This document shows, piece by piece, positions 2,855 to 27,411 of a stretch of 64,000 nucleotides of DNA. Within the stretch, counting starts at the first letter, position 1. Every line of letters starts with the position of its first letter. The position numbers and the translations under genes were made by a program. The notes below the pieces were generated by a model. The model made no database searches. It was not told where the DNA came from and was given only the letters and a program-made list of their open reading frames with translations. Origin of the DNA: Arcobacteraceae bacterium (lineage in GTDB: Bacteria > Campylobacterota > Campylobacteria > Campylobacterales > Arcobacteraceae); the NCBI GenBank assembly GCA_021107755.1, contig JAIOSF010000026.1, positions 1 through 64,000 of the forward strand, written 5' to 3'.

Positions 2855-3853
<999 letters not shown>

Positions 3854-3955
3854 TAATTACTAAAGTTTAGAAAATTAAATCTTGAGGTCAATACCTCAAG
3901 TATAAAACAAAAAATTAATAAACAAAATAAAAAATAAAAACAATAGGAGAAAATT

Positions 3956-4315
3956 ATGTTTGTATGTGGTTATCATTTTCCAGCGAGTGAAGGAAACGAT
4001 GTATCTTTTGATAAAGTTATAGAAAAAGTAAGTGAAGGTATTGATTCAACAGGTAAAACTGTTACATTAACAAGTGAAACAAGAGAAGGTGTTCAATTAG
4101 AAACATTAGAAGTACCAGCAGGTACATTTGCACACACTGCATTTGTAGATTATTACACAAATACAGAAGTTGCTGAAAAAGATGGTTTAAAAATGATTTA
4201 TTATACAAATAAATACCAAATTTCTGAAATTTCTAAATCTGTAGATGGTGCAGTTACAAAAGATTTATGTAAAAAATTAGATGATATGAATCTATACAGA
4301 GTAAAAGTAGCATAA
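3956..4315 (+). CDS. Uncharacterised 119-aa protein between nifH and nifD
   Basis: Intact ORF with upstream RBS (aggaga); no recognised PII or ferredoxin motif. Confidence 0.8.
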   Translation: MFVCGYHFPASEGNDVSFDKVIEKVSEGIDSTGKTVTLTSETREGVQLETLEVPAGTFAHTAFVDYYTNTEVAEKDGLKMIYYTNKYQISEISKSVDGAVTKDLCKKLDDMNLYRVKVA

Positions 4316-4437
4316 AAAGGTTTAGAATAGCAATTCTTTCATACGATTTCGGCGTTGAGGACTCGTCATTTACTCTAAGTAAACTTCCTCATCCTCGCCT
4401 TGAACTCGAATGAAATAATCACCATTCAAAACCTTTT
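4315..4437. repeat. 123-bp imperfect palindrome in the nifH-nifD intergenic region
   Basis: aaaaggttt..gaat..tttcat.cga ... tcg.atgaaa..attc..aaacctttt around core TTTAC-TCTAA-GTAAA (centre 4376). Confidence 0.8.
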
Positions 4438-4469
4438 GATTAAATTAAAATAAAAGCAAAAGGAAAGTT

Positions 4470-5936
4470 ATGGCAAACGAAGAATTAGAAGCTTTACAAA
4501 AAGAAGCTATAGAAGAGGTACTGTCTGTTTACCCTGCAAAAGCTGCAAAAAACAGAGCAAAGCATTTAGGTGTTGATACTCCAGAGGGTGTAAAAGGTGC
4601 TTGTGATAAAACTAGATCAAATAAACAAACAGTTCCAGGTGTAATGTCTCAAAGAGGTTGTGCGTACGCAGGTTCTAAGGGTGTTGTATGGGGACCAATT
4701 AAAGATATGATTCATATTTCTCATGGACCAGTAGGTTGTGGACAATATTCAAGAGCGGGTAGAAGAAACTACTATATCGGTACAACAGGTGTTGATACAT
4801 TTGTTACAATGAACTTCACAACAGATTTTTCTGAGAATGACATTGTATTTGGTGGGGATATTAAACTTAAAAAAGCTCTTGGTGAGATTGATGAGTTATT
4901 TCCATTAAATAATGGTATATCTATTCAATCTGAGTGTCCAATTGGTTTAATTGGTGATGATATTCAAGCTGTTGCAAAAGTACATAAAAAAGAATCTGAC
5001 AAACCAACAATTGCTGTTTCATGTGAAGGGTTTAGAGGGGTTTCTCAGTCGTTGGGGCACCACATAGCTAATGATATGATCAGAGATGAAGTTATGCCAG
5101 ATGCAAGTCATAGACAAAACTTTGAATCTACAGATTTTGATGTAGCTATTATTGGGGATTACAACATCGGTGGTGATGCTTGGGCTTCAAGAATATTACT
5201 AGAAGAGATGGGATTAAGAGTTATTGCTCAATGGTCTGGAGATGCTACTTATAAAGAGATGGCAATCGCACCAAAAGCAAAACTTAACTTACTTCACTGT
5301 TATAGATCAATGAACTATATCTCAAGACATATGGAACAAGAGTTCGGTATACCTTGGATGGAATATAACTTCTTTGGACCAAGTAAAACAACAGAGTCTT
5401 TAAGAAAAATTGCTGAGTTCTTTGGACCAGAAGTTCAAGAAAAAACAGAAGCAGTTATAGCTAAATATACAAAAATGACTGACGAAGTTATTGCTAAATA
5501 TAGACCTAAATTAGAGGGTAAAAAAGTAATGCTATATGTTGGTGGATTAAGACCAAGACATGTTATTGGTGCTTATGAAGATTTAGGTATGGAAGTTATC
5601 GGTACTGGATATGAGTTCGGTCACGGTGATGATTATAAAAGAACAAAAGAAGATTTAGGAAGAGCTACATTAATTTATGATGATGTTAATGAGTACGAAC
5701 TAGAAGCTTTCGTTAAAAAATTAAAACCAGATTTAGTTGCATCTGGAGTTAAAGAGAAATATGTATTCCAAAAAATGGGTCTACCATTTAGACAAATGCA
5801 CTCTTGGGATTACTCTGGACCATACCATGGTTATGATGCATTCGCAATTTTTGCAAAAGATATGGACTTAGCTATGAACTCACCAGTTTGGAGTCATACA
5901 AAAGCACCATGGGATAAAGAAGAGGTAGGAGCTTAA
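4470..5936 (+). CDS. nifD: Nitrogenase MoFe protein alpha chain NifD
   Basis: Family motifs: [63 protein letters not shown]. Confidence 0.97.
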
Positions 5937-5937
5937 T

Positions 5938-7485
5938 ATGCAAGACGTAAATAATATAGTAAACGGACAAAAGCTGTTCTTAAAAGAAGATTACCAAGCT
6001 TCTTTAGCAGCAAAAAAAGAGTTTGAAGGTTCAATGGGTTCAATTAATCCTGCGAAAGTTGAAGAAGTTGCTGAGTGGACTAAATCTTGGGATTATAGAG
6101 AGAAAAACTTAGCAAGAGAAGCTATTACAGTTAACCCTGCTAAAGCTTGTCAACCACTTGGAGCTATTATGGCTGCACTTGGATTTGAAAATACAATGCC
6201 TTATGTACATGGAAGTCACGGATGTGTTGCATACTTTAGATCGTACTTTACAAGACACTTTAAAGAACCAACACCATGTGTATCTGATAGTATGTCAGAA
6301 TCTGCAGCGGTATTTGGTGGATTAGCAAATATGAAAGATGGTTTAAGAAACTGTAACGCAATGTACAAACCAGAAATGATAGCTGTATCTACAACTTGTA
6401 TGGCAGAAGTTATCGGAGATGATTTAGGTGCATTTATCATTGGTGCTAGAGATGAAGCAGAAGGAGAACTAGATGCTTTACCAATAACTTATGCTCATAC
6501 TCCATCATTTGTTGGGTCACATATTACAGGTTATGATAATATGATGAAAGGTATGCTTGAGCAATTAAGTATAGGAAAAGAGAACAGAGTTGTTGAAGAG
6601 GGAAGAATTAATATTATCCCTGGTTTTGAACCTTACCTTGGATCTTTAGCAGAAGTTAAAGAGATTGCTGCATCATTTTCTGACAAAATTGTAATGTTAG
6701 GTGATCATGAAGAGCAATGGAATACAGGTGCTGGTGGATATAGTTTATATGCTGGTGGTACACCATTAGAAGTTGCTAAAACAGCTATAAATGCAGAGAC
6801 TACAATCTCTTTACAAAAATATTCTACAGTGCAAACTGCTAAGACTATTAAAAATAAATGGAAACAAGGTTTTGAAACTTGTAATCCAATAGGACTTGCT
6901 GGTACAGATGAATTCGTAATGAAATTAGCTGAACTTACAGGTAAAGAAGTTCCAGAGTCGTTAAAAACTCAAAGAGCTCAACTTGTTGATGCAATGCAAG
7001 ATTCTTACCCATATATGCATGGTAAAAAGTTTGCAATCTATGGTGATCCAGATTTCTTATTAGGTCTTGTTGCATTTATCGTTGAAATGGGTGGTATCCC
7101 AACTCATGTATTATGTCACAATGCTCCAAGGAAAGGTTGGGAAGCAGATATGCAAGCAATCATAGACAAATCTGATTGGGCAAGTGATTGTCAAATCTGG
7201 GCTGGTAAAGATTTATGGCACTTAAGATCATTATTATTTACAGAGCCAGTAGATTTCTTAATCGGTAATGTTTACGGTAAAGAATTATACAGAGATACAA
7301 AAATACCTTTAATCAGAATTGGTTTCCCAATTTTTGATAGACATCACTTACATAGATACTCTATGAGTGGTTACAAAGGTGCTTTAAATCTATTAACATG
7401 GATTACAAACTCTGTTCTAGACGAACTAGATGAAGAGACAAAAGATATAGCTAAAACAGATTATTTCTTTGATTGTGTGAGATAA
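5938..7485 (+). CDS. nifK: Nitrogenase MoFe protein beta chain NifK
   Basis: Follows nifD by 1 nt; PYVHGSHGCVAYFRSYFTRHFKEP; STTCMAEVIGDDL; GFPIFDRHHLHR. Confidence 0.97.
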   Translation: MQDVNNIVNGQKLFLKEDYQASLAAKKEFEGSMGSINPAKVEEVAEWTKSWDYREKNLAREAITVNPAKACQPLGAIMAALGFENTMPYVHGSHGCVAYFRSYFTRHFKEPTPCVSDSMSESAAVFGGLANMKDGLRNCNAMYKPEMIAVSTTCMAEVIGDDLGAFIIGARDEAEGELDALPITYAHTPSFVGSHITGYDNMMKGMLEQLSIGKENRVVEEGRINIIPGFEPYLGSLAEVKEIAASFSDKIVMLGDHEEQWNTGAGGYSLYAGGTPLEVAKTAINAETTISLQKYSTVQTAKTIKNKWKQGFETCNPIGLAGTDEFVMKLAELTGKEVPESLKTQRAQLVDAMQDSYPYMHGKKFAIYGDPDFLLGLVAFIVEMGGIPTHVLCHNAPRKGWEADMQAIIDKSDWASDCQIWAGKDLWHLRSLLFTEPVDFLIGNVYGKELYRDTKIPLIRIGFPIFDRHHLHRYSMSGYKGALNLLTWITNSVLDELDEETKDIAKTDYFFDCVR

Positions 7486-15002: not shown

Positions 15003-15018
15003 TGGAATAGTACTTGCA
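15003..15018 (+). promoter_or_regulatory. Sigma54 -24/-12 promoter
   Basis: TGGAATAGTACTTGCA, 38 nt upstream of sORF ATG. Confidence 0.85.
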
Positions 15019-15053
15019 TAATTGTTACTAATTTATAAAATTTTAAAGGGAAG

Positions 15054-15152
15054 ATGATGGAAACTTATATATTACCAATTATATTAATATCTTATACTAT
15101 TGCCATAGTAATTTATACAAATAAAACTTATGCAAAAATGACAAAAAGGTAA
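15054..15152 (+). CDS. 32-aa predicted single-pass membrane peptide (absent from ORF track)
   Basis: MMETYILPIILISYTIAIVIYTNKTYAKMTKR, RBS aaaggga, 3 nt before the next ATG. Confidence 0.65.
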   Translation: MMETYILPIILISYTIAIVIYTNKTYAKMTKR

Positions 15153-15155
15153 TCC

Positions 15156-16262
15156 ATGAAAGTAGCAACACCAGAAAATACATTAGAATTTGCCAAAAAA
15201 TTTTCACACTATAAAGATTTTTATACTCAAAGCAATGGGTTGATATTTTCAAAACTAGGTTTAGGTACATTTAATAAAGAACCATACAAAGAGGAAAACT
15301 ATGTTTTTCATTATATTGCAGGGGTTAAAGAAGCCGTTAAAAATGGAATTAACTTAATAGATACAGCAAGTAACTATAGATATGGACAAAGTGAAAAAGA
15401 GATAGGCGTTGCATTAGAAGAGCTATATGAAGAAGATTCAGTAAAAAGGGAAGATTTAATTATATGTTCAAAAGGTGGTTTTATACAGTTAGATTATCCA
15501 TTTCCAGAGAATCCATATACTTGGATAGATGAAAATATTGTTAGTAAAAAATTAGCAACTAAAGATGAAATCGAGTTAGATCAACACTGTATGACACCAG
15601 ATTATTTAGAATGGTCTTGTAGAAGAAGTTTAGAAAATCTTGGAGTTGAAAGTTTAGATATCTATTATCTTCATAACCCAGAGATGCAGGTTTTAAAATT
15701 AGGTGAGAAAAACTTTTATAAACAAATAGAGAAAATATTCAAAAGGTTTGAAAAGTTAGCTGATGAGGGACTATTTAAATATTATGGTGTGGCTGTTTGG
15801 AATGGTTTTATGTCTGAAATAAATGAAAATATTGAGATAGAAAAATTAGTTGAGTGTGCAAAAAAAGTTGGTGGTGAAAATCATAGATTTAAATATATCC
15901 AAACCCCTTTTAATATGGGAAAAACAACAGCATATACAACACCAACTCAAAAAGTTAATGGTGAAAAATGCACTATTTTACAAGCTGCATATAGATTAGG
16001 TTTAGGTGTTATTGGTAGTTCTAGTTTATTACAAATGAATCTTTTTAAAAAATCATTTACAGCAGAAACAGGGGTGATTTTAGACAATAGTATGACTTTA
16101 AAAAGTGATATTCAATTAGCATTACAATTTGTTCGCTCAACTCCTGGAATTGTAAGTGGACTTTTTGGAAGTAAAGTCCCTGTAAATATAAAACAAAATT
16201 GTGAAATATCAAAAGTAAAAGCAGTACCAAAAAGTAAATATGATTTACTGTATAGGTTGTAG
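15156..16262 (+). CDS. Aldo/keto reductase
   Basis: LGLGTFN; NLIDTASNYRYGQSEKEIG; ICSKGG; YYLHNPE. Confidence 0.88.
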   Translation: MKVATPENTLEFAKKFSHYKDFYTQSNGLIFSKLGLGTFNKEPYKEENYVFHYIAGVKEAVKNGINLIDTASNYRYGQSEKEIGVALEELYEEDSVKREDLIICSKGGFIQLDYPFPENPYTWIDENIVSKKLATKDEIELDQHCMTPDYLEWSCRRSLENLGVESLDIYYLHNPEMQVLKLGEKNFYKQIEKIFKRFEKLADEGLFKYYGVAVWNGFMSEINENIEIEKLVECAKKVGGENHRFKYIQTPFNMGKTTAYTTPTQKVNGEKCTILQAAYRLGLGVIGSSSLLQMNLFKKSFTAETGVILDNSMTLKSDIQLALQFVRSTPGIVSGLFGSKVPVNIKQNCEISKVKAVPKSKYDLLYRL

Positions 16263-16265
16263 TGA

Positions 16266-17915
16266 ATGATATTTGATGTAATTGTTGTAGGTGGTGGCGT
16301 TGCTGGTTTGATGGCTGCTATTGAAGCTAAAAGTGATACTACGCTAAAAGTTGCAGTTGTAACAAAAGGGAATCTTTTTAAATCAAATAGTAGTCTAGCT
16401 AGTGGTGGAATAAACGGTGTTTTGGATAAAAATGATAAAGAGGGTATATCAAAACATATTGATGATACTTTAAAAGGTTCCTATGGACTAGCAGATAAAA
16501 AAGCTGTAACTTATATGTGTGAACAAGCTCCACTAATCATCTCAAAACTTGCAGATTATGGGGTGAATTTTGATAAAGATGAAAATGGAAATATAGCTCA
16601 AAGAAGTTTTGGTGGTGGAAGCAGTAAAAGAACTTGTTATGTTGGTGATAAAACAGGTTCAGCTATAACACAAGCACTTATTAAAAAAGCAAAAACTGTA
16701 GGTGTAGAGTTTTTAGTAAACCATTTTGTGATGAATATTACAAAAATAGACAATAAAGTAAGTGGGATAGTAGTTTTAAGAAGACTAGATTCTTCTGTGA
16801 TGGTCTATCCCGCAAAATCAGTTGTATTAGCAGGTGGTGGATATGCTGGTCTTTACAGAGGTTTTAGTACAAATGCTCAAGACTATACAGGTGATATGCT
16901 CTCAATTGCTTTACGAGCTGGATTAGCTTTAAAAGATATGGAGTTTGTACAGTTTCATCCAACTGGATTTATAAAAACAAGTTATCTTGTAAGTGAAGCA
17001 GCACGAGGTGAGGGTGGCTATCTTATAAATAGTGAAGGTGAGCGATTTGTTGATGAACTAGATACAAGAGATGTGGTAAGTCGTGCTATTTCAAAACAGA
17101 TTAATGATGGTAAAGAGGTGTTTATAGATTTAAGACATTTAACCCCTGAACATATAGAATCAAAACTTCCAAGTTTACAAAAAGCTGCTTTGATGCAAGC
17201 TGGTGTTGATATCACATCAGAGCTACTCCCTATAAAACCAGTGGCTCACTATACAATGGGTGGTATAGAGGCAAATATGACAAGAACAACAATTAAAGGT
17301 CTTTTTGTATGTGGTGAGTGTGCTGTAAATGGGGTACATGGAGCAAATAGACTTGGTGGTAACTCTCTTTTAGAGGGTGCTGTTTTTGGAGAACTAGCAG
17401 GCAGAAATGCGTTAAAGTATAGTGAACGAAAAGCATTTTTGCCAATTGATTACAATATTGTAGTAAAAGATCAACAAAAAGTTGACTATATCTTCGATCA
17501 AGATACAACAAAAAACTTTAATTCTATGAGAATATCTGTTGGGAAAACAATGTTTGAATTAGCTGGAATTAGTAGAAGTAAGCAGAAGCTTTTTAAAGCA
17601 TTAGATTATTTAAAATATTTACGAAGAGAATCTGGAACACTCCATTGTATAGATAAGGGGAGAAATAATAATGTAGAGCTTGTCTCTATATTGGAGTTAC
17701 AAAATGCACTAGAGGTGGCACAAACTGTTGTAATTAGTGCACGAAAAAGAAAAGAGAGCCGTGGTGCACACCATAGGGATGATTATCCTGATACAAATGA
17801 TGAATATAAACACAGTATTTTAGTAAATGAACTAAAAAGAGGTTTTTATAAAGTGTGGTTACAAAAAAATAATATACTAGGGTATTTGCGAAGATTGGTT
17901 GCAAATAATAACTAG
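16266..17915 (+). CDS. FAD-dependent fumarate reductase/L-aspartate oxidase-like flavoprotein
   Basis: VIVVGGGVAGLMAAIEA; FVQFHPTGF; HGANRLGGNSLLE; SRGAHHRDDYP. Confidence 0.88.
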   Translation: MIFDVIVVGGGVAGLMAAIEAKSDTTLKVAVVTKGNLFKSNSSLASGGINGVLDKNDKEGISKHIDDTLKGSYGLADKKAVTYMCEQAPLIISKLADYGVNFDKDENGNIAQRSFGGGSSKRTCYVGDKTGSAITQALIKKAKTVGVEFLVNHFVMNITKIDNKVSGIVVLRRLDSSVMVYPAKSVVLAGGGYAGLYRGFSTNAQDYTGDMLSIALRAGLALKDMEFVQFHPTGFIKTSYLVSEAARGEGGYLINSEGERFVDELDTRDVVSRAISKQINDGKEVFIDLRHLTPEHIESKLPSLQKAALMQAGVDITSELLPIKPVAHYTMGGIEANMTRTTIKGLFVCGECAVNGVHGANRLGGNSLLEGAVFGELAGRNALKYSERKAFLPIDYNIVVKDQQKVDYIFDQDTTKNFNSMRISVGKTMFELAGISRSKQKLFKALDYLKYLRRESGTLHCIDKGRNNNVELVSILELQNALEVAQTVVISARKRKESRGAHHRDDYPDTNDEYKHSILVNELKRGFYKVWLQKNNILGYLRRLVANNN

Positions 17916-17929
17916 GAATGAATAATGCA
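17914..17929 (+). promoter_or_regulatory. Candidate sigma54 promoter of nifT
   Basis: AGGAATGAATAATGCA, 31 nt from GC to nifT ATG; overlaps the upstream stop codon. Confidence 0.6.
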
Positions 17930-17957: not shown

Positions 17958-18167
17958 ATGGCAAAAGTGATGTTAAGAGAAGCAAATGGGGAAATATATT
18001 TCTATATAGCAAAAAAAGATATGGAAGAGACTATAGAAACTATTGAATTTAGTGATGATGATAATTGGGGTGGAGAAGTAGAACTAAGTAATGGTGAAAC
18101 TTGGTGGATACAACCAGGTCCAAAAAACCTACCAAAAGAGGAAGTTTGTAAAAAACTAGCCGATTGA
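17958..18167 (+). CDS. nifT: NifT/FixU family protein
   Basis: MAKVMLREANGEIYFYIAKKDMEETI...WGGEVELSNGETWWI. Confidence 0.88.
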   Translation: MAKVMLREANGEIYFYIAKKDMEETIETIEFSDDDNWGGEVELSNGETWWIQPGPKNLPKEEVCKKLAD

Positions 18168-18249: not shown

Positions 18250-19770
18250 ATGAATAGTGAAGATAGTTTGATACAAATAGAACTTAATGTTTTACAAGAT
18301 ATAGCTACAATAATAGCCGATTCAAGAGGACAAATAGTAGAGTCTTTAGAGAAGTGTCTAAAAATACTCAAAAAAAATCTTGATTTAGAAAATTGTGTTA
18401 TATATAAATTAGAAGATGATATGTTAAACATATTTGCTTCTATAGATTTTAATAAGCACCAAAAAATTATATCAGAATATAGACTAGGTGAGGGTGCTAC
18501 AGGTTTAGCTGCAAAGAGTATGGAACCTGTTGTTATTGAAAATGTACATAATGATATATTATTTTTAAATAAATCTGGAAATAGAAGTAGTGATACTATT
18601 TCATATATCGCAGTTCCTATGATTGTAGAACATGAAACAATTGGTGTGTTAGCAACTAATCTTACAAAATCTACAAAAATAGACTTTGATGATACTGTGA
18701 GAATACTATCAATTATTAGTTCTTTATTTGCTCAAAGTATGTATTCACATTTTGTCTTAGAAGATGAGAAAGAGAAGTTAAAAGATCTTAAACAGTATTA
18801 TAAAATGGAGTGGGATTCAAAAGTGCATAATTTTGGTGACATAATTGGCGAGAGTAAGAAGATGAAGGATGTCTATAGAGTTATTGAGCGAATTGCGCAA
18901 AGTGATGTGACTATTCTTGTGAGAGGTGAAACTGGAACTGGTAAAGAACTAGTAGCAGCTGCAATACATAAAAGAAGTCGCAGAGCAGAAGAGCCATTTG
19001 TAAAATTAAACTGTGCAGCTATAACTGATAGTTTACTAGAAAGTGAGCTATTTGGACATGAAAAAGGTGCATTTACAGATGCTAAAGAGACTAGAAAAGG
19101 GCGATTTGAGCTTGCAGATAAGGGGACTTTATTTTTAGATGAGATAGGGGATATTAGTGCGAGTGCTCAAGTAAAATTACTAAGAGTTTTACAAGAAAGA
19201 GAGTTTGAACGAGTTGGTGGAAGCAAAACTATCAAAGTCAATGTAAGACTAGTGGCTGCAACAAATCGAAATCTTGAACAGATGGTAAAAGATGGAGAGT
19301 TTAGAGAAGATTTATATTATAGATTAAATGTTATACCAATAGATTTACCTCCATTGAGAAAAAGGGGTGAAGATATAAAACTTCTTGTAAACTTTTTTCT
19401 TGAAAGAGCTGTGAAAAACCATAAGAAGATGGTAACTATTACAGATGAGGCGATGGATAAACTTATGGGTTATCCTTGGCCTGGAAATGTAAGAGAGATG
19501 GAAAATACTATTGAGAGAATTGTATTGATGGGTGATGAAAAAGGTATAAATGCAGCAGATATGCTTCTACTCCTTCCAGCTTTAAAAAATGAAAAGTTAA
19601 TTGAAGAGTATAAAACAATTTCAATGGAAAATAGAACATTGGATGAGCTAGAGAAAGAAGCGATAGCAAAAGCACTCAAAGATTGTAGTAACAATCAATC
19701 AAAAGCAGCTGAGATGTTAGGGATAACAGTCAGACAAATAGGATATAAAGTGAAAAAATATGGAATCTGA
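18250..19770 (+). CDS. nifA: Nif-specific sigma54 activator NifA (GAF-AAA+-HTH)
   Basis: GETGTGKELVAAAIH; ESELFGHEKGAFTDA; GTLFLDEIGD; C-terminal HTH NNQSKAAEMLGITVRQIGYKVKKYGI. Confidence 0.93.
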   Translation: MNSEDSLIQIELNVLQDIATIIADSRGQIVESLEKCLKILKKNLDLENCVIYKLEDDMLNIFASIDFNKHQKIISEYRLGEGATGLAAKSMEPVVIENVHNDILFLNKSGNRSSDTISYIAVPMIVEHETIGVLATNLTKSTKIDFDDTVRILSIISSLFAQSMYSHFVLEDEKEKLKDLKQYYKMEWDSKVHNFGDIIGESKKMKDVYRVIERIAQSDVTILVRGETGTGKELVAAAIHKRSRRAEEPFVKLNCAAITDSLLESELFGHEKGAFTDAKETRKGRFELADKGTLFLDEIGDISASAQVKLLRVLQEREFERVGGSKTIKVNVRLVAATNRNLEQMVKDGEFREDLYYRLNVIPIDLPPLRKRGEDIKLLVNFFLERAVKNHKKMVTITDEAMDKLMGYPWPGNVREMENTIERIVLMGDEKGINAADMLLLLPALKNEKLIEEYKTISMENRTLDELEKEAIAKALKDCSNNQSKAAEMLGITVRQIGYKVKKYGI

Positions 19771-20299
19771 TATTATATATAAAAATGAACAGTTTGATTT
19801 GTGTGATGACTTTATCGATATAGGTTATATGGCTGAAAACTTTGAAGTGGTTGATACAAATGGTGAAAAGCAAGAGATAAAAAGAAGTCATAGTGATGGT
19901 TCTATGAGTTTATTTATCTCATTTCCTGATACTAGTGATGATTTTAGTAAAGAGATTTTAAAAATCGATCAGTTTATGAGTAAGATTCAAGTTCCTATTA
20001 AATGTTATTTTATATTTAATGAAGAGTTAGAAGATACAACAGTTTTTAAAAATAGACTAAAAAAATTTGAGATGGTTTTTGATAGTGAAGATGAATTTGG
20101 AAATATGTATGGAACAAAAATAGTAAGTGGTAGTTTAGAAAACAAACTTACAAAAGCATTGTTTCTTATCTCAAAAGATGGGGCGGTATTTTTTTTGGAT
20201 ATGCCAAAAGATTTAGAAAAAGAGTTTGATTTAGAGAGATTGCAAGTGGAACTAAACAAAGCATATGTAACATATACTGGCACAGGATGTCATGGATAA
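19760..20299 (+). CDS. Thiol peroxidase-like redoxin-fold protein without peroxidatic Cys
   Basis: GYMAENFEVVDTNGEKQEIKR...LFISFPDTSDDFSKEILKIDQF; the DTxxC position reads DTSDD. Confidence 0.65.
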   Translation: MESDIIYKNEQFDLCDDFIDIGYMAENFEVVDTNGEKQEIKRSHSDGSMSLFISFPDTSDDFSKEILKIDQFMSKIQVPIKCYFIFNEELEDTTVFKNRLKKFEMVFDSEDEFGNMYGTKIVSGSLENKLTKALFLISKDGAVFFLDMPKDLEKEFDLERLQVELNKAYVTYTGTGCHG

Positions 20300-20360: not shown

Positions 20361-20376
20361 TGGAATGGCTTATGCA
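20361..20376 (+). promoter_or_regulatory. Sigma54 -24/-12 promoter
   Basis: TGGAATGGCTTATGCA, 40 nt from GC to preferred ATG (20414). Confidence 0.82.
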
Positions 20377-20413
20377 ATATGTTTATCATATAAAGTAATA
20401 AATGGGAAGTATA

Positions 20414-21235
20414 ATGGAAAACATAAAAGAAAAGATAATAAGTGGTGAACTAGTTCCATTTTTAGGTATGGGTGTATTTGAGGGCGTAAAATCTACTGAT
20501 GGTGTACAGTTACCATTTGATAGTGATAGTATGGTACTAGCCCTTAACAATGGTCGAGCTATGAGTGCAAGACTTATGTATGAGTACACAAGAGCTGCTA
20601 TGAGTTTAGAGCAACGAAAAGGTAGAGAGTTTATCATTCAAATGACAAATCATATTTATAGTTCAAAAGAGTATGAACTTCCTTATGTGTACCAATTTTT
20701 AAAAGAGATTAAACCAAAATATATGATAGATACAAACCTTGATGATAGTGGTTGTAAAATCTATGAAGATGTAGAACACTTTATGGTAACTGGCGTTTCA
20801 AGAGTTATGGGTGGATATGATAGATTTATTGTATATAAATATGACTTGCCAACAAAAACATACAACAAAATAGAAAAAGATGAACTAAACGATAGTATCC
20901 CAATTCTTTTTAAACCTATGGGTTCAACTATTCCAGATATGGACTTTATAGTAAGTGATGCTGACTTTGTTGATTGGTTAACAGAAGCTATGGGTGGATA
21001 TGCGATACCTCCATTTTTAAAAGGGTACAAACAAGGGAAATCATACCTATTTTTAGGGATAGATTTTAGTCGTGATACCTATAGAATGGTTGCAAATGAG
21101 ATAACACTAGGACTTGATACAGGAATAGTTGTATCAAACAAAGAGGAACATAGTAAAAAAGAGAATAAGTTTATCTCTACACATAACTTAGAGTTAGTAC
21201 AAGAGGATACAAATAGTTTTTTAAAGGCTTTATAA
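20414..21235 (+). CDS. SIR2-like domain protein (nif-associated)
   Basis: GELVPFLGMGVFEGV Rossmann-like start; KYMIDTNLDDSG; YLFLGIDFSRDTYRM; GGAAG RBS before ATG 20414. Confidence 0.65.
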   Translation: MENIKEKIISGELVPFLGMGVFEGVKSTDGVQLPFDSDSMVLALNNGRAMSARLMYEYTRAAMSLEQRKGREFIIQMTNHIYSSKEYELPYVYQFLKEIKPKYMIDTNLDDSGCKIYEDVEHFMVTGVSRVMGGYDRFIVYKYDLPTKTYNKIEKDELNDSIPILFKPMGSTIPDMDFIVSDADFVDWLTEAMGGYAIPPFLKGYKQGKSYLFLGIDFSRDTYRMVANEITLGLDTGIVVSNKEEHSKKENKFISTHNLELVQEDTNSFLKAL

Positions 21236-21342: not shown

Positions 21343-21392
21343 ATAACAAAATGCAATATTTTTTAATAAATCTAAAATTTGATGCTATGATA
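21343..21392. repeat. 50-bp direct repeat, copy 1 (upstream of RhuM)
   Basis: ATAACAAAATGCAATATTTTTTAATAAATCTAAAATTTGATGCTATGATA. Confidence 0.85.
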
Positions 21393-21425
21393 CATAATAT
21401 AAAACTCAAAAGAGGCAGAGCAATT

Positions 21426-22421
21426 ATGAATGAGATACTACTATACAAAACAGCAAATCAAGATATAAAACTTGAAGTTTTAATACAAGATGAAACAATA
21501 TGGTTAAATCAAAAACAAATATCAGAACTTTTTGATGTAAAAGTTCCTGCTATTTCTAAACACTTAAAAAATATATTTACTAGTGGTGAACTTAATGAAA
21601 AAGTGGTTGTTTCCAAAATGGAAATAACCACTCAACATGGTGCAATACTAGATAAAAAACAATCAAAATTAGTAAATATTTATAACCTTGATGCAATTAT
21701 ATCTATAGGATACAGAGTAAATAGCCAAAAAGCTACACAGTTTCGTATCTGGGCTACAAATGTTTTAAAAGAGTATATCATCAAAGGTTTTGCTATGGAT
21801 GATGAGAGACTGAAAAATCCATCTCAACCTTTTGGAAAAGATTATTTTGATGAACAACTGATGCGAATACGAGATATACGAACTAGTGAAAGAAGATTTT
21901 ATCAAAAAATCACAGATATATATTCTCAATGCAGTGCTGACTATGATCCCAACAGTGAAGAAACTAAAAACTTTTATGCAACAGTTCAAAACAAACTTCA
22001 CTATGCGATGGTTGGACATACGGCTTCTGAAATTATATATGATAGAGCCGATAGTCAAAAGGAGAATATGGGATTAACCTCATGGAAAAACGGATCAAAA
22101 GGAAAGATTAGAAAAACCGATGTAACTATTGCCAAAAATTATCTTAAAGTAGGTGAGTTAGATTTATATAATAGAATTGTAACTATGTATCTTGATTTTG
22201 CAGAACTTCAAGCAAAAAGTAAAAAGATAATGTATCAAAAAGATTGGATAGAAAGGTTAGATAAGTTTTTGATGTTAAATGACAGAGAGATACTTCAAAA
22301 TAATGGAAAGGTAACTATGAAATTAGCAAAAGAGTTAGCTTTAAATGAATTTGATAAATACAATAAAATACAAGACAAATTATATATAAGTGATTTTGAT
22401 AAGCTTTTAGAAGAAATTTAG
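21426..22421 (+). CDS. RhuM family protein
   Basis: EVLIQDETIWLNQKQISELFDVKVPAISKHLKNIF; YNLDAIISIGYRVNSQKATQFRIWATNVLKEYIIKGFAMDDERLK. Confidence 0.9.
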   Translation: MNEILLYKTANQDIKLEVLIQDETIWLNQKQISELFDVKVPAISKHLKNIFTSGELNEKVVVSKMEITTQHGAILDKKQSKLVNIYNLDAIISIGYRVNSQKATQFRIWATNVLKEYIIKGFAMDDERLKNPSQPFGKDYFDEQLMRIRDIRTSERRFYQKITDIYSQCSADYDPNSEETKNFYATVQNKLHYAMVGHTASEIIYDRADSQKENMGLTSWKNGSKGKIRKTDVTIAKNYLKVGELDLYNRIVTMYLDFAELQAKSKKIMYQKDWIERLDKFLMLNDREILQNNGKVTMKLAKELALNEFDKYNKIQDKLYISDFDKLLEEI

Positions 22422-22423
22422 GT

Positions 22424-24079
22424 ATGGAGTTAGTTTATTTATGGGTTGAGGATTATAAAAATATTAAGAATCAGGGATTTAATTTTTCTCCTAGGTTTGA
22501 GTGTAAATATGATGAAGATAGGAATGAACTTACTATTGATAAAAATGATGATTATGTAAGTATTTTTCCTGATAATATTAATGTTACTGCTATTGTTGGG
22601 GAGAATGGAAGTGGGAAGAGCACTATTCATGAAATAATAAATAATGCAATTTTTGAGATTTTTGATAAATTTGATAAAAAAACAGAAGAAATGTTTTATG
22701 ATAAATGTTTATATGAATATAAAAATATAATTTTATTTTTAAAAGAAGGTAAAAAAATATACTCTATAGTCGCAGGTAAAACAAAAAATAGTTATCATAT
22801 TAGAACATCATTGAAACATTTAGAATTAAAAACAAAGTCTCCTTTTATATATAATAAAAAAGAATTTGATACTAGAAAGTTAAAACTTTTATTTTTTAAT
22901 AATACTAATTTTTTAGATTTTACTGAAAATCATAATTCTTATATTCATCACTATTATATTGCTGGAAAACAAGGATATAGAACAGAATATGATAATTTAA
23001 TTTTACAGAGTAATACAACTATAGGAAAGAATTTGAGACTAAGTCTTTTAGTTAAAATATTATTTCTACTAAAAATAAAGAAAAAATATTTTAGTTTTTT
23101 AAAGTCAGATTTTTTATTTGATAGTATTTTTTTCAAATTAGATGAAAGACAGAAAAAGAATATCATTAAAAACTATGATGAAATAATAAAGGAAATAGAT
23201 TTTAGGTTTATAAATTTGAATAAAGAATATTATAAAAATAATAAAGAAAAAATCATATATTTAGTAGAACATAGCAAGGATATTATTAATTTTGATAATT
23301 TAGATGATGATATTTATTATTTTATAATGTTAGGATTTCAATATTTAAATGATGAAAAAGAATGTGATTTATTAACTGTTGAGATACTTTCAAGTAGTAA
23401 TAACCTTTCCTTAAATCATCTAAGCTCGGGTGAACAAACTATTATAAAGTCATTTGTGGAATTGTTTTATACATTAGAAATAGCTAAGATTAATGATGAA
23501 AATGTAATATTAATGATTGATGAAGTAGAATTAACACTACATCCTAATGTACAAAAAAAATTTATTTATGATTTGAATAAAGGCTTAGAACAATTAAGTT
23601 TTCATAACTCATTACAAATAATAATTAATTCTCACTCTCCCTTTATTCTTTCAGATTTACCAAAAGAAAATGTAATGTTTTTAAAACAAGGCAAACAAAA
23701 ATATCCATTTAAAGATAAACAAACATTTGGAGCAAATATTCATACTCTTTTATCTCATGGTTTTTTTATGAAAGATGGGCTTATGGGTGAGTTTGCGAAA
23801 GATAAAATTCAATCAATTATAAAATATCAAGAGGAACTCTTAGAAAAAAAATTAATGAACGAAGAAAACAAAATTCAAAGAGAAAAAGAAAAAGAAATTT
23901 ATGAAAAAGAGTATAAAACAAAATTTTGGCAAATTCAATCAATTATTGGAGATGATTATTTAAAACAAATAATAAAAAATCATTTGATAGAAATAGAGAA
24001 GATAGTTTTAGGAAATGATGAAGCAAAAAAAGAAGAAGTTAAGAGATTAAAAGCTCAAATAGAGTTATTGGAAAAATAA
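22424..24079 (+). CDS. AAA ATPase, Septu PtuA-like
   Basis: VTAIVGENGSGKSTI Walker A; LSSGEQ signature; ILMIDEVELTLHP; INSHSPFILSDLP; paired with HNH gene. Confidence 0.78.
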   Translation: MELVYLWVEDYKNIKNQGFNFSPRFECKYDEDRNELTIDKNDDYVSIFPDNINVTAIVGENGSGKSTIHEIINNAIFEIFDKFDKKTEEMFYDKCLYEYKNIILFLKEGKKIYSIVAGKTKNSYHIRTSLKHLELKTKSPFIYNKKEFDTRKLKLLFFNNTNFLDFTENHNSYIHHYYIAGKQGYRTEYDNLILQSNTTIGKNLRLSLLVKILFLLKIKKKYFSFLKSDFLFDSIFFKLDERQKKNIIKNYDEIIKEIDFRFINLNKEYYKNNKEKIIYLVEHSKDIINFDNLDDDIYYFIMLGFQYLNDEKECDLLTVEILSSSNNLSLNHLSSGEQTIIKSFVELFYTLEIAKINDENVILMIDEVELTLHPNVQKKFIYDLNKGLEQLSFHNSLQIIINSHSPFILSDLPKENVMFLKQGKQKYPFKDKQTFGANIHTLLSHGFFMKDGLMGEFAKDKIQSIIKYQEELLEKKLMNEENKIQREKEKEIYEKEYKTKFWQIQSIIGDDYLKQIIKNHLIEIEKIVLGNDEAKKEEVKRLKAQIELLEK

Positions 24080-24080
24080 A

Positions 24081-24986
24081 ATGTTAAAAATAAAATATTC
24101 ATTAAATTTAGAAAATAGCTACTATGAAATAATTGCAAAAAGTAAAGCCGATAAATTTAAAGGTTTAACTTTTGAAGAGTATTACAACAAGCATTATAAA
24201 AAAACTTTGATTTATGAATTAAAAGAGATTCTTTGCGGAGATTTTGACAAGATAGTAGAAATAAAAGATTTTCATAAAACTAAATATAAAAATGATAATA
24301 CAGTAAAGAAAATTTTTAATTATGATAAGGCAAAAACAACAAAATTTATTCCCTTGATTTCAAAGCTACAACCAAAAATATCAAAATTTTTTGAAGAAAA
24401 TGTGGAAGTTCATACTTGTTATTATTGTAATACTGATTTTATAAATAAATTCACAAAGGGTAAAGAAACAAAAAATGCCTTTACATTAGACCATGTTTTA
24501 GAAAAAGCAGATTATCCTTTTTTAGCATTGAGTTTATACAATTTAGTACCAAGTTGTTATGTATGTAATAGTAAAGTAAAAGATTCAAAGATACCATTTG
24601 ATAAGTTTTCTCCAACAAATAAAGATTTTGATTTTGATGAAAAAGTAAAGTTTAAATCATTTATTTCAAATCCAAATCTTCAAATAGAAAAAGAAGAAGA
24701 TTTTTATATAAAACTGATAGAACATTATGCAAATAAATATGATAAATATATAGAAAGTTTAAATTTAAACAATAGATATGATTACCATAAATATAAAGTT
24801 GTAGAGATGATCCAAAAAAGAAGAGAATATCCAGATAGTAGAATCAAAGAGTTGTCGGATTTGACTCAAAAAACACAAGAAGAGATAAAACAAGATTTAT
24901 TTGGAATATATTTGAATGAAGACCTACACAAACGCCCACTTAGTAAACTTATTAAAGATATAAGTGAAGAATTAGGTCTAACATAA
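24081..24986 (+). CDS. HNH endonuclease, Septu PtuB-like
   Basis: HTCYYCNTDF ... FTLDHVLEKADYPFLALSLYNLVPSCYVCNSKVKDSK. Confidence 0.8.
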   Translation: MLKIKYSLNLENSYYEIIAKSKADKFKGLTFEEYYNKHYKKTLIYELKEILCGDFDKIVEIKDFHKTKYKNDNTVKKIFNYDKAKTTKFIPLISKLQPKISKFFEENVEVHTCYYCNTDFINKFTKGKETKNAFTLDHVLEKADYPFLALSLYNLVPSCYVCNSKVKDSKIPFDKFSPTNKDFDFDEKVKFKSFISNPNLQIEKEEDFYIKLIEHYANKYDKYIESLNLNNRYDYHKYKVVEMIQKRREYPDSRIKELSDLTQKTQEEIKQDLFGIYLNEDLHKRPLSKLIKDISEELGLT

Positions 24987-25032
24987 CAAAATGCAATACT
25001 TTTAAATAAAACCATTTTTTCTTGCTATGATA
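24983..25032. repeat. 50-bp direct repeat, copy 2 (upstream of DUF1016 gene)
   Basis: ATAACAAAATGCAATACTTTTAAATAAAACCATTTTTTCTTGCTATGATA. Confidence 0.85.
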
Positions 25033-25057
25033 ATAAAAAATATCAAGGTGACATAAG

Positions 25058-26104
25058 ATGAATAGTATTATCAAATCAAGTGAATATAACACTTGGTTAA
25101 AAGAGTTGAAATCTAAACTAAAACAAGCTCAAATAAAAGCTTCTATAAAAGTAAATACAGTATTGCTAGAGTTTTACTGGGAACTTGGCAATGAGATAGT
25201 TGAAAAACAAAAAAACAGCACTTGGGGAAGTGGATTTTTACAACAACTAAGTGATGATTTGATGAGTGAGTTTCCTGATATGAAGGGATTTTCAGAAGCA
25301 AATTTACAGTATATCCGTCGTTGGGTATTATTTTATTCTAAAAGTGGAACAAGTTATTCTACAATTGTGGCACAACTTGTGCCACAATTAATAATAATAC
25401 CATGGGGACATAATAGAACCATAATCTCAAAATGTAAAGATACCCAAGAAGCACTTTTTTATGTAAACAAAACCATAGAAAATGGTTTGGAGTAGAAGTG
25501 TCTTAGTACATCAAATAGAGAGTGATCTATATACAAGAAGTGGAAAAGCTATATCAAACTTTGAAGTAACTTTGCCAAAAGAACAATCAGACTTAGCCTA
25601 TGAACTTATAAAAGACCCATATAACTTTGATTTTTTAACTCTAAGTGAAAATTTCAAAGAGAAAGAACTCGAATCAGGCTTATTGGAACATATCACAAGT
25701 TTTTTATTAGAACTTGGAAGTGGATTTGCTTTTGTTGGAAAACAAAAAATCTTAAAGTCGGTCAAAAAGATTTTTACATTGACTTGCTTTTCTATCATAT
25801 AAGAATGCACTGCTATGTTGTAGTTGAGTTAAAAACTGCTGATTTTGAACCAGAGTTTGCAGGGAAACTAAACTTTTATATTAAAGCCGTTGATGAACAG
25901 ATAAAAACAAAAGAGGATAAACCTACTATTGGTATATTATTATGTAAGAGTAAAGATAAGGTTGTAGTAGAATATAGTTTAAGTGATATACATAAACCAA
26001 TGGGAATATCACAATATCAATTAACTCATATAGTACCAGAAGAGTTAAAGGGAAGTTTGCCAGCTATTGAAGATATTGCAGCTGAGTTAAACAGAAAAGG
26101 ATAG
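25058..26104 (+). pseudogene. DUF1016/YhcG-like PDDEXK nuclease broken by two frameshifts
   Basis: ORFs 25058-25495, 25482-25802, 25784-26104 read as one protein: ...IENG/WSRSVLVHQIESDLYTR...FVGKQK/LKVGQKDFYIDLLFYH...CYVVVELKTADFEPEFAGKLNFYI. Confidence 0.85.
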
Positions 26105-26122: not shown

Positions 26123-26138
26123 CGGAATGATATTTGCA
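26123..26138 (+). promoter_or_regulatory. Sigma54 -24/-12 promoter of clpX
   Basis: CGGAATGATATTTGCA, 37 nt from GC to ATG. Confidence 0.75.
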
Positions 26139-26172: not shown

Positions 26173-27411
26173 ATGAAACAAGAAGAATTGATCTGTGACT
26201 TTTGTGGTAAAACAGTCAAAGAAGTAAATAAAATATTTAGTGCAGAAAATGCACATATCTGTAATGAATGTGTAGAAACCTGCTCAATGGTTATGCACAA
26301 AAGTGAACTCAAAAAAGCAAAAGAAGATTTTCAAAAAGGTCTTTCTGTTCCTACAAAAATCAAAGAACACCTTGACAACTATGTAATAGGTCAAAGTGAT
26401 GCGAAAAAAGTACTTTCAGTTGCTTTATACTCACACTACAAAAGAATCGATAAACCAATTTTCAAAAATGTAGAGATAGAAAAATCAAATATTATGCTTA
26501 TTGGTCCAACAGGAAGCGGTAAAACACTACTGGCAAAATCATTGGCTAAGATTATGGATGTACCATTTGCAGTTGCAGATGCTACAGCTTTAACAGAAGC
26601 TGGGTATGTGGGTGAAGATGTTGAGTCTATACTTTCACGACTTTTAGCATCAGCTGATTTTGATGTGGAGCGAGCTCAAAAAGGGATTATCTATATAGAT
26701 GAGATAGATAAAGTTGCAAACAAAAGTGAAAGTGCAACAAGTGGTAGAGATGTAAGTGGAGAGGGTGTTCAGCAAGGACTCTTGAAAATACTTGAAGGTG
26801 GAGAGGTGTATGTTCCTGTAAAAGGGAGTCGTAAAAGCTCAACTACTGAAACAGTTTTATTTGATACTACACATGTACTTTTTATCTGTGGTGGTGCTTT
26901 TGTTGGTCTTGTTGGTGATGATGAACAAAAGAAAAAACATAGAAAAAAAGTGATGGGATTTATGACTGAAAGCTTTGCAGATATAACTGATGAAGTTGAA
27001 TCAAAAGACCTTATCTCGTATGGATTAATACCTGAGTTTATAGGAAGAATTCCTGTAATTGCAACACTTAATGAACTTACAACAGAAGATTTAATACGAG
27101 TTTTACAAGAGCCAAAAAATGCTATTATTAAACAATACCAAGCACTATTTGAACTTGATGGTATGGATTTAGAGTTTAATGATGAAGCATTAGCAACAAT
27201 AGCAGAACTAGCACAGAAAAAAGGTGTAGGGGCAAGAGGACTTAGAGGTATTATAGAAAAAATCATGCTTCCACTTCAATATGAACTTCCAGCATCAAAT
27301 GATATTGAAAAATGTATTATTACAAAAGAGTTTATTGAGGGTGTTGCCGATGTAATTTTAGAATATGTAAAAGAGAGTAAACCTGCTAAAAAAGAGAAAG
27401 AAAATGGATGA
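26173..27411 (+). CDS. clpX: ClpX family unfoldase
   Basis: Zinc finger CDFCGK..CNEC; IMLIGPTGSGKTLLAKSLAKIMDVPF; GVGARGLRGIIEKIMLPLQYELP. Confidence 0.95.
   Translation: MKQEELICDFCGKTVKEVNKIFSAENAHICNECVETCSMVMHKSELKKAKEDFQKGLSVPTKIKEHLDNYVIGQSDAKKVLSVALYSHYKRIDKPIFKNVEIEKSNIMLIGPTGSGKTLLAKSLAKIMDVPFAVADATALTEAGYVGEDVESILSRLLASADFDVERAQKGIIYIDEIDKVANKSESATSGRDVSGEGVQQGLLKILEGGEVYVPVKGSRKSSTTETVLFDTTHVLFICGGAFVGLVGDDEQKKKHRKKVMGFMTESFADITDEVESKDLISYGLIPEFIGRIPVIATLNELTTEDLIRVLQEPKNAIIKQYQALFELDGMDLEFNDEALATIAELAQKKGVGARGLRGIIEKIMLPLQYELPASNDIEKCIITKEFIEGVADVILEYVKESKPAKKEKENG

Follow-up and report, generated by a model that had tools for sequence, protein, structure and literature searches.

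An aldo/keto reductase and a lone FrdA-type flavoprotein accompany nitrogenase genes in Campylobacterota

In the Campylobacterota that we sampled, essentially every conventional nitrogenase is accompanied by a pair of genes for an aldo/keto reductase (AKR) and a stand-alone flavoprotein of the FrdA/SdhA type (FLAV). In the DNA studied here, a 64-kb stretch from an Arcobacteraceae bacterium that we refer to as the window, the pair is preceded by a small open reading frame (sORF) for a single-transmembrane (TM) protein and followed by nifT and nifA. The enzyme superfamilies to which AKR and FLAV belong are already known. The open-access literature, in contrast, yielded no description of the pair as a companion of nif genes, nor of the small peptide, and the excerpted text on the 'Zeitz' epsilonproteobacterium lists nif genes with no mention of the pair (PMC4674564). 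We give an even chance to the view that AKR–FLAV–nifT–nifA, with the sORF where it is present, constitutes a dedicated nitrogen-fixation accessory module that serves the redox or metabolite upkeep of nitrogenase.

The features of the locus are listed in Table 1. An earlier note on this DNA had described positions 15003–17915 as a σ54-type (−24/−12) site, a small ORF, AKR and FLAV leading into nifT and nifA, and its coordinates are correct. The site TGGAATAGTACTTGCA does precede the small ORF, the sequence GGGAAG ahead of ATGATG bears out its ribosome-binding site, and 3 nt separate the sORF from AKR and AKR from FLAV. The score of the nifA-type activator, 509.8 bits, is slightly below the TIGR01817 cut-off of 528.85. 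The nifHDK genes lie in the same window at 2939–7485, and a further σ54-like site, at 20361, lies ahead of the SIR2-like gene. Between nifH and nifD is an ORF of 119 aa (3956–4312) that is kept in most nifHD-containing loci and that matched no Pfam family.

Table 1. Features of the AKR–FLAV locus (positions are those of the window)
Feature	Position	Strand	Basis or remark
σ54-type (−24/−12) site TGGAATAGTACTTGCA	15003..15018	+	GG-N10-GC element, same form at nifH
Small single-TM protein ORF (sORF)	15054..15152	+	Called at 32 aa; 31 aa from the probable start at 15057
AKR, aldo/keto reductase	15156..16262	+	PF00248 E=8e-28; tetrad D69/Y74/K106/H173 in alignment
FLAV, stand-alone FrdA/SdhA-type flavoprotein	16266..17915	+	PF00890/PF02910, residues, tree, fold match
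Weaker σ54-like site AGGAATGAATAATGCA before nifT	17914..17929	+	Promoter-motif scan
nifT	17958..18167	+	TIGR02934 65.1 bits, cut-off 41
nifA-type activator (GAF, AAA+, Fis HTH)	18250..19770	+	TIGR01817 509.8 bits plus Pfam domains
Redoxin-like protein of conserved module	19760..20299	+	PF08534 E=6.5e-4, under Pfam cut-off; 29 loci
SIR2-like protein of conserved module	20402..21235	+	PF13289, under Pfam cut-off; 28 loci

The association with nitrogenase was assessed in 398 Campylobacterota genomes, in which AKR was counted at E ≤ 1e-60 and NifD when it scored over its cut-off. AKR was present in 74 genomes, which represent 24 genera and are not independent samples, full-length NifD was present in 73, and both were found together in 73. 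The one genome with AKR only (G394) has rpoN (σ54) and nifU–AKR–FLAV–nifT on one contig, along with an incomplete match to nifH and fragments that resemble NifE/N, and since these other nif genes are present the absence of nifD looks like an assembly gap. All 74 AKR genomes carry nif genes, and AKR is absent from the rest. Orthologues of FLAV were found in 74 of the 74, with scores of 638–1018 bits as compared to 566 or less for paralogues. In two genomes (G162 and G420) FLAV is on a different contig from AKR, nifT lying directly after AKR in the former; thus, the co-retention of AKR and FLAV is independent of linkage. The nif link that the earlier note had proposed is upheld by these counts together with the conserved order AKR–FLAV–nifT–nifA, and a check within Campylobacterota for the pair as a common feature of non-diazotrophs left it intact. 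Beyond the phylum survey, exact peptide patterns were searched for across 85,488 species, and every record that matched was named either Campylobacterota or simply 'bacterium'.

Two genomes have a NifD below the cut-off, and both are without AKR. One (G049:C14:2135-9460) contains a divergent, apparently intact nif set in which NifH is over its cut-off and NifD and NifK are just under theirs. It is apparently Lebetimonas-like and of a different nif lineage, and from its lack of AKR it follows that the AKR module is not needed by all nitrogenases. The other (G262:C1:1435843-1440756) contains a decayed nif cluster with fragments of nifH and nifK that are interrupted by stops and frame breaks.

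The widespread gene order is AKR–FLAV–nifT–nifA–redoxin-like–SIR2-like(–clpX), with nifU–AKR–FLAV–nifT in its place in Sulfurimonas-type genomes. At most loci about 10 nt or less separate the stop codon of AKR from the start of FLAV, and at Sulfurimonas-type loci the two overlap by 8 nt; nifT comes directly after FLAV or AKR in nearly every locus. Homologues of clpX are found in 26 nif loci and adjoin the SIR2-like gene where inspected. In the window a second ClpX (26173–27411, 51% to the other ClpX of the genome) is preceded by a σ54-like site at 26124, and a defence-type island (21351–26104) lies between it and the SIR2-like gene. The island contains RhuM/PDC-S05, a PDC-M62A/B ATPase plus HNH and a YhcG/DUF1016 nuclease that is split over three ORFs. 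In relatives such as L040 and L058 the SIR2-like gene and clpX are adjacent.

The product of AKR scores 97.8 bits against PF00248 (gathering score 24 bits), and the residues of its catalytic tetrad are invariant in our alignment. It reached no NCBIfam equivalog cut-off, and its most likely activity is the reduction of carbonyls with NAD(P)H. Weak matches were obtained to 1qwk, IolS and L-galactose dehydrogenase. Because confidence in the predicted model is no more than moderate (pLDDT 76.8), fold matches leave the substrate unfixed. The best outside match seen (38%) was an AKR from a Nostoc NRPS gene cluster, and plasmid searches returned distant AKRs only, one of them in a Nostoc NRPS cluster.

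FLAV retains a complete dicarboxylate active site: H231, R268, H328, R362 and E244 are invariant in the alignment and are the equivalents of H232, R287, H355, R390 and E245 of FrdA. The His that attaches FAD covalently is replaced by N41 in all FLAV rows of the alignment, and FAD is accordingly predicted to be bound non-covalently. The predicted model (pLDDT 86) matches Escherichia coli FrdA with a TM score of 0.92, and NadB structures ranked lower. FLAV sequences are monophyletic (support 100/98) and stand apart from E. coli FrdA, SdhA and NadB and from the paralogues in the genome studied here. At the locus FLAV is flanked by AKR and nifT, with no gene for an Fe-S partner or a membrane subunit. 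Soluble relatives that work alone and bind FAD non-covalently reduce fumarate but cannot oxidise succinate (PMC9557727), which is why the probable substrate of FLAV is fumarate or another unsaturated acid like it. FLAV is most likely a soluble lone-subunit enzyme that reduces fumarate or a comparable unsaturated dicarboxylate, the reductive direction being suggested by analogy with these relatives.

The label 'aspartate oxidase-like' that FLAV had been given is wrong as regards the active site. It is true that FLAV resembles NadB in being a stand-alone protein without the covalent His, and NadB models do match it (418.4 bits for TIGR00551), but this is under the trusted cut-off of 452.75, and every other NadB equivalog cut-off was missed as well. 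Moreover, Phe115, as in FrdA and SdhA, is at the position of Glu121 of NadB, the genome has a separate NadB that carries the Glu, and the fold of FLAV is nearer to that of FrdA. A second L-aspartate oxidase, consuming O2 or making iminoaspartate, is thus a highly improbable identity for FLAV.

Matches to SDH occurred in 60 of 60 relatives; these are paralogues of 46% identity or less that tree and score set apart from FLAV. Plasmid searches contained no FLAV orthologue, the best match being about 36%. The sister clade of FLAV is made up of stand-alone paralogues from two loci, L081 (7139–8692, genome G050) and L082 (7574–9133, genome G047). AKR and NifD were undetected in both genomes, and in L081 a NifU homologue lies near the FLAV paralogue.

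The sORF is a real gene that is under purifying selection at the level of amino acids. Of 40 distinct loci, 23 have an ORF of about 30 aa with a single TM segment immediately ahead of AKR, and the other 17 lack it. These ORFs share an acidic N-terminus, a Tyr midway along the helix and a basic tail that often reads YTNxxYKK. Nine of nine separate pairs had dN/dS values of 0.00–0.32 (synonymous sites are saturated in the 0.00 pair), and differences at codon positions 1, 2 and 3 numbered 71, 43 and 115 over 266 codons (p=3e-8). Since relatives begin with MET, the second of the two ATG codons is probably the true start. In a profile survey of the phylum, all 13 matches at E ≤ 1e-6 immediately preceded AKR in genomes with nif genes, as did three weaker matches; other weak matches (3e-5 or worse) were scattered. 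One of these weak matches (G011:C18:14077-14139, E=3e-5) lies 43 kb from the main copy and is possibly a paralogue. No Pfam or NCBIfam model matched the sORF, which we regard as an undescribed, lineage-limited protein family and one that annotation is likely to overlook.

Could the sORF instead be a leader ORF only, acting by translational coupling or regulation through a product without function? Many loci place it between the promoter and AKR, and in some Arcobacter loci a hairpin replaces it in the AKR leader. Selection on its amino acids and the conserved TM and YTN-YKK pattern speak against this. So does promoter position: several Arcobacter-type loci have one σ54 site for the sORF and a second for AKR, in seven (L032, L041, L046, L051, L028, L029 and L057) AKR's own site lies downstream of the sORF, and in some loci the sORF sits upstream of the only σ54 site of AKR. 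As σ54 sites separate the two genes, the sORF is not merely a leader of AKR, and we consider a role as leader alone quite unlikely. The hairpin itself is a conserved stem-loop: its 9-bp stem forms completely in each of 10 sequences, which differ in both arms, and it is sometimes trailed by an attenuator- or terminator-like T run. It lies between the σ54 site and AKR in nine loci (L041, L045, L046, L048, L051, L026, L027, L028 and L029) and between the σ54 site and the sORF in L054; it is not in the window, and Rfam gave no match in the four loci checked.

Sigma-54 sites in the window exceed chance. The form GGAAYNNNNNNTGCA occurs six times in the 64 kb as compared to 0.6 expected, a number that none of 100 shuffles reached, and five of the six sites directly precede nifH, sORF/AKR, nifT, the SIR2-like gene and clpX. 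Equivalent sites precede either AKR or the sORF in 25 of the 40 distinct loci. In several loci without a site of its own AKR closely follows nifK, and there the nifH promoter may drive it. In Campylobacterota σ54 also drives flagellar genes. The earlier note had implied NifA control of the locus; the σ54-type promoter is there, but the canonical NifA upstream site, TGT-N10-ACA, is absent from the window and from 23 of 24 loci (one occurrence across 24 upstream regions versus 1.6 expected), and no other palindromes upstream of the promoters rose above shuffles. For this reason NifA dependence is a matter of inference.

How might the module work? During nitrogen fixation, σ54 RNA polymerase would transcribe sORF (where present), AKR, FLAV, nifT and nifA, probably under activation by the NifA that the module itself encodes. 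AKR would reduce carbonyls with NAD(P)H and FLAV, a FrdA-like lone subunit, a fumarate-like acid, the two perhaps acting on the same or linked metabolites. The pair would thereby maintain the redox state or the metabolites that nitrogenase assembly or operation requires, with the small TM peptide as a putative physical partner that might serve as a membrane anchor or as a modulator. A more specific version, to which we attach little probability, makes AKR, the lone flavoprotein and the peptide of about 30 aa obligatory partners in a redox step for nitrogenase assembly or upkeep, in which the peptide would dock the enzymes at the membrane, with, for example, electrons from the quinone pool. Against such an accessory module, a co-inherited nif island can give perfect co-occurrence with no biochemical link; co-inheritance alone is, however, argued against by the two genomes that retain FLAV away from AKR.

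The main rival to a housekeeping pair is that AKR and FLAV work directly alongside NifT (and NifU) in maturing nitrogenase or its metal clusters or in keeping them stable. They might, for instance, produce or repair a small organic ligand or hold a cluster-assembly partner in the reduced state. The position of nifT, the nifU–AKR–FLAV–nifT order of Sulfurimonas-type genomes and the nif-linked ClpX of the same module all favor such a role. Nevertheless, gene order is not mechanism, NifT is without an agreed function (it is listed as unknown; PMC12903952), and homocitrate needs no new route given that NifV is present; an alternative homocitrate route was rejected because NifV scores over its cut-off. 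We judge direct action in maturation to be possible, if on the unlikely side. The earlier note had gone further in suggesting electron supply or the handling of oxygen and reactive oxygen species (ROS), and of its interpretation the nif link is what stands. Redox enzymes adjoining nif genes with a σ54 site do invite the idea that the pair supplies electrons to nitrogenase, but the flavin potentials of the superfamily, about −50 to −220 mV (PMC9557727), are too high for reduction of the Fe protein, and the module contains no gene for a ferredoxin, flavodoxin or Fe-S subunit. With such potentials and no low-potential carrier, direct supply is very improbable. Handling of O2 or ROS in microaerobic nitrogen fixation, to which the redoxin-like and SIR2-like neighbors in most loci might point, is very unlikely too, though a shade less so: the redoxin-like protein matches its family only under the Pfam cut-off, inspection by eye showed no obvious peroxidatic Cys in it, and the core pair includes no ROS enzyme. 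Metabolite, redox or maturation housekeeping is more likely than electron supply.

Because the pair accompanies conventional nitrogenase, nitrogen fixation in Campylobacterota seems to use helper genes, and because co-occurrence with nif is complete, AKR and FLAV are plausible missing parts of the nitrogenase system of this phylum. Vents and sulfidic water are habitats where the phylum abounds, essentially all of its sampled conventional diazotrophs keep the pair beside nifT, and the pair may help to explain NifT.

Finally, we compare the module with known systems. AKR shares with the aldo/keto reductase superfamily its TIM-barrel match and D/Y/K/H tetrad, but it is a long-insert family of its own, below every NCBIfam equivalog. 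In the fixR–nifA operon of Bradyrhizobium, too, a redox gene is co-transcribed ahead of nifA from a σ54-type promoter, but that gene, fixR, encodes a short-chain dehydrogenase with no relation to either AKR or FLAV. The nif-linked second ClpX of the window resembles ClpX2 of Azotobacter vinelandii, which is cited as controlling NifB/NifEN levels (PMC3916325). FLAV is like E. coli FrdA of complex II (PDB 6awf/1kf6) in fold, in its active-site His, Arg and Glu residues and in the Phe at the NadB Glu121 position, but unlike it in having neither the covalent-FAD His nor genes for FrdB, FrdC and FrdD and in forming a separate clade; it also differs from FrdA/SdhA in falling below the TIGR01812 cut-off. 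With NadB it has in common a stand-alone subunit, a predicted non-covalent FAD and a common fold, but it lacks Glu121 and coexists with the genome's own NadB. The soluble fumarate reductases, yeast Osm1/Frds1 and Shewanella flavocytochrome c, are likewise stand-alone members of the same superfamily with, as predicted for FLAV, non-covalent FAD, whereas FLAV is nearer in sequence to FrdA/SdhA, has no cytochrome domain and is linked to nif.
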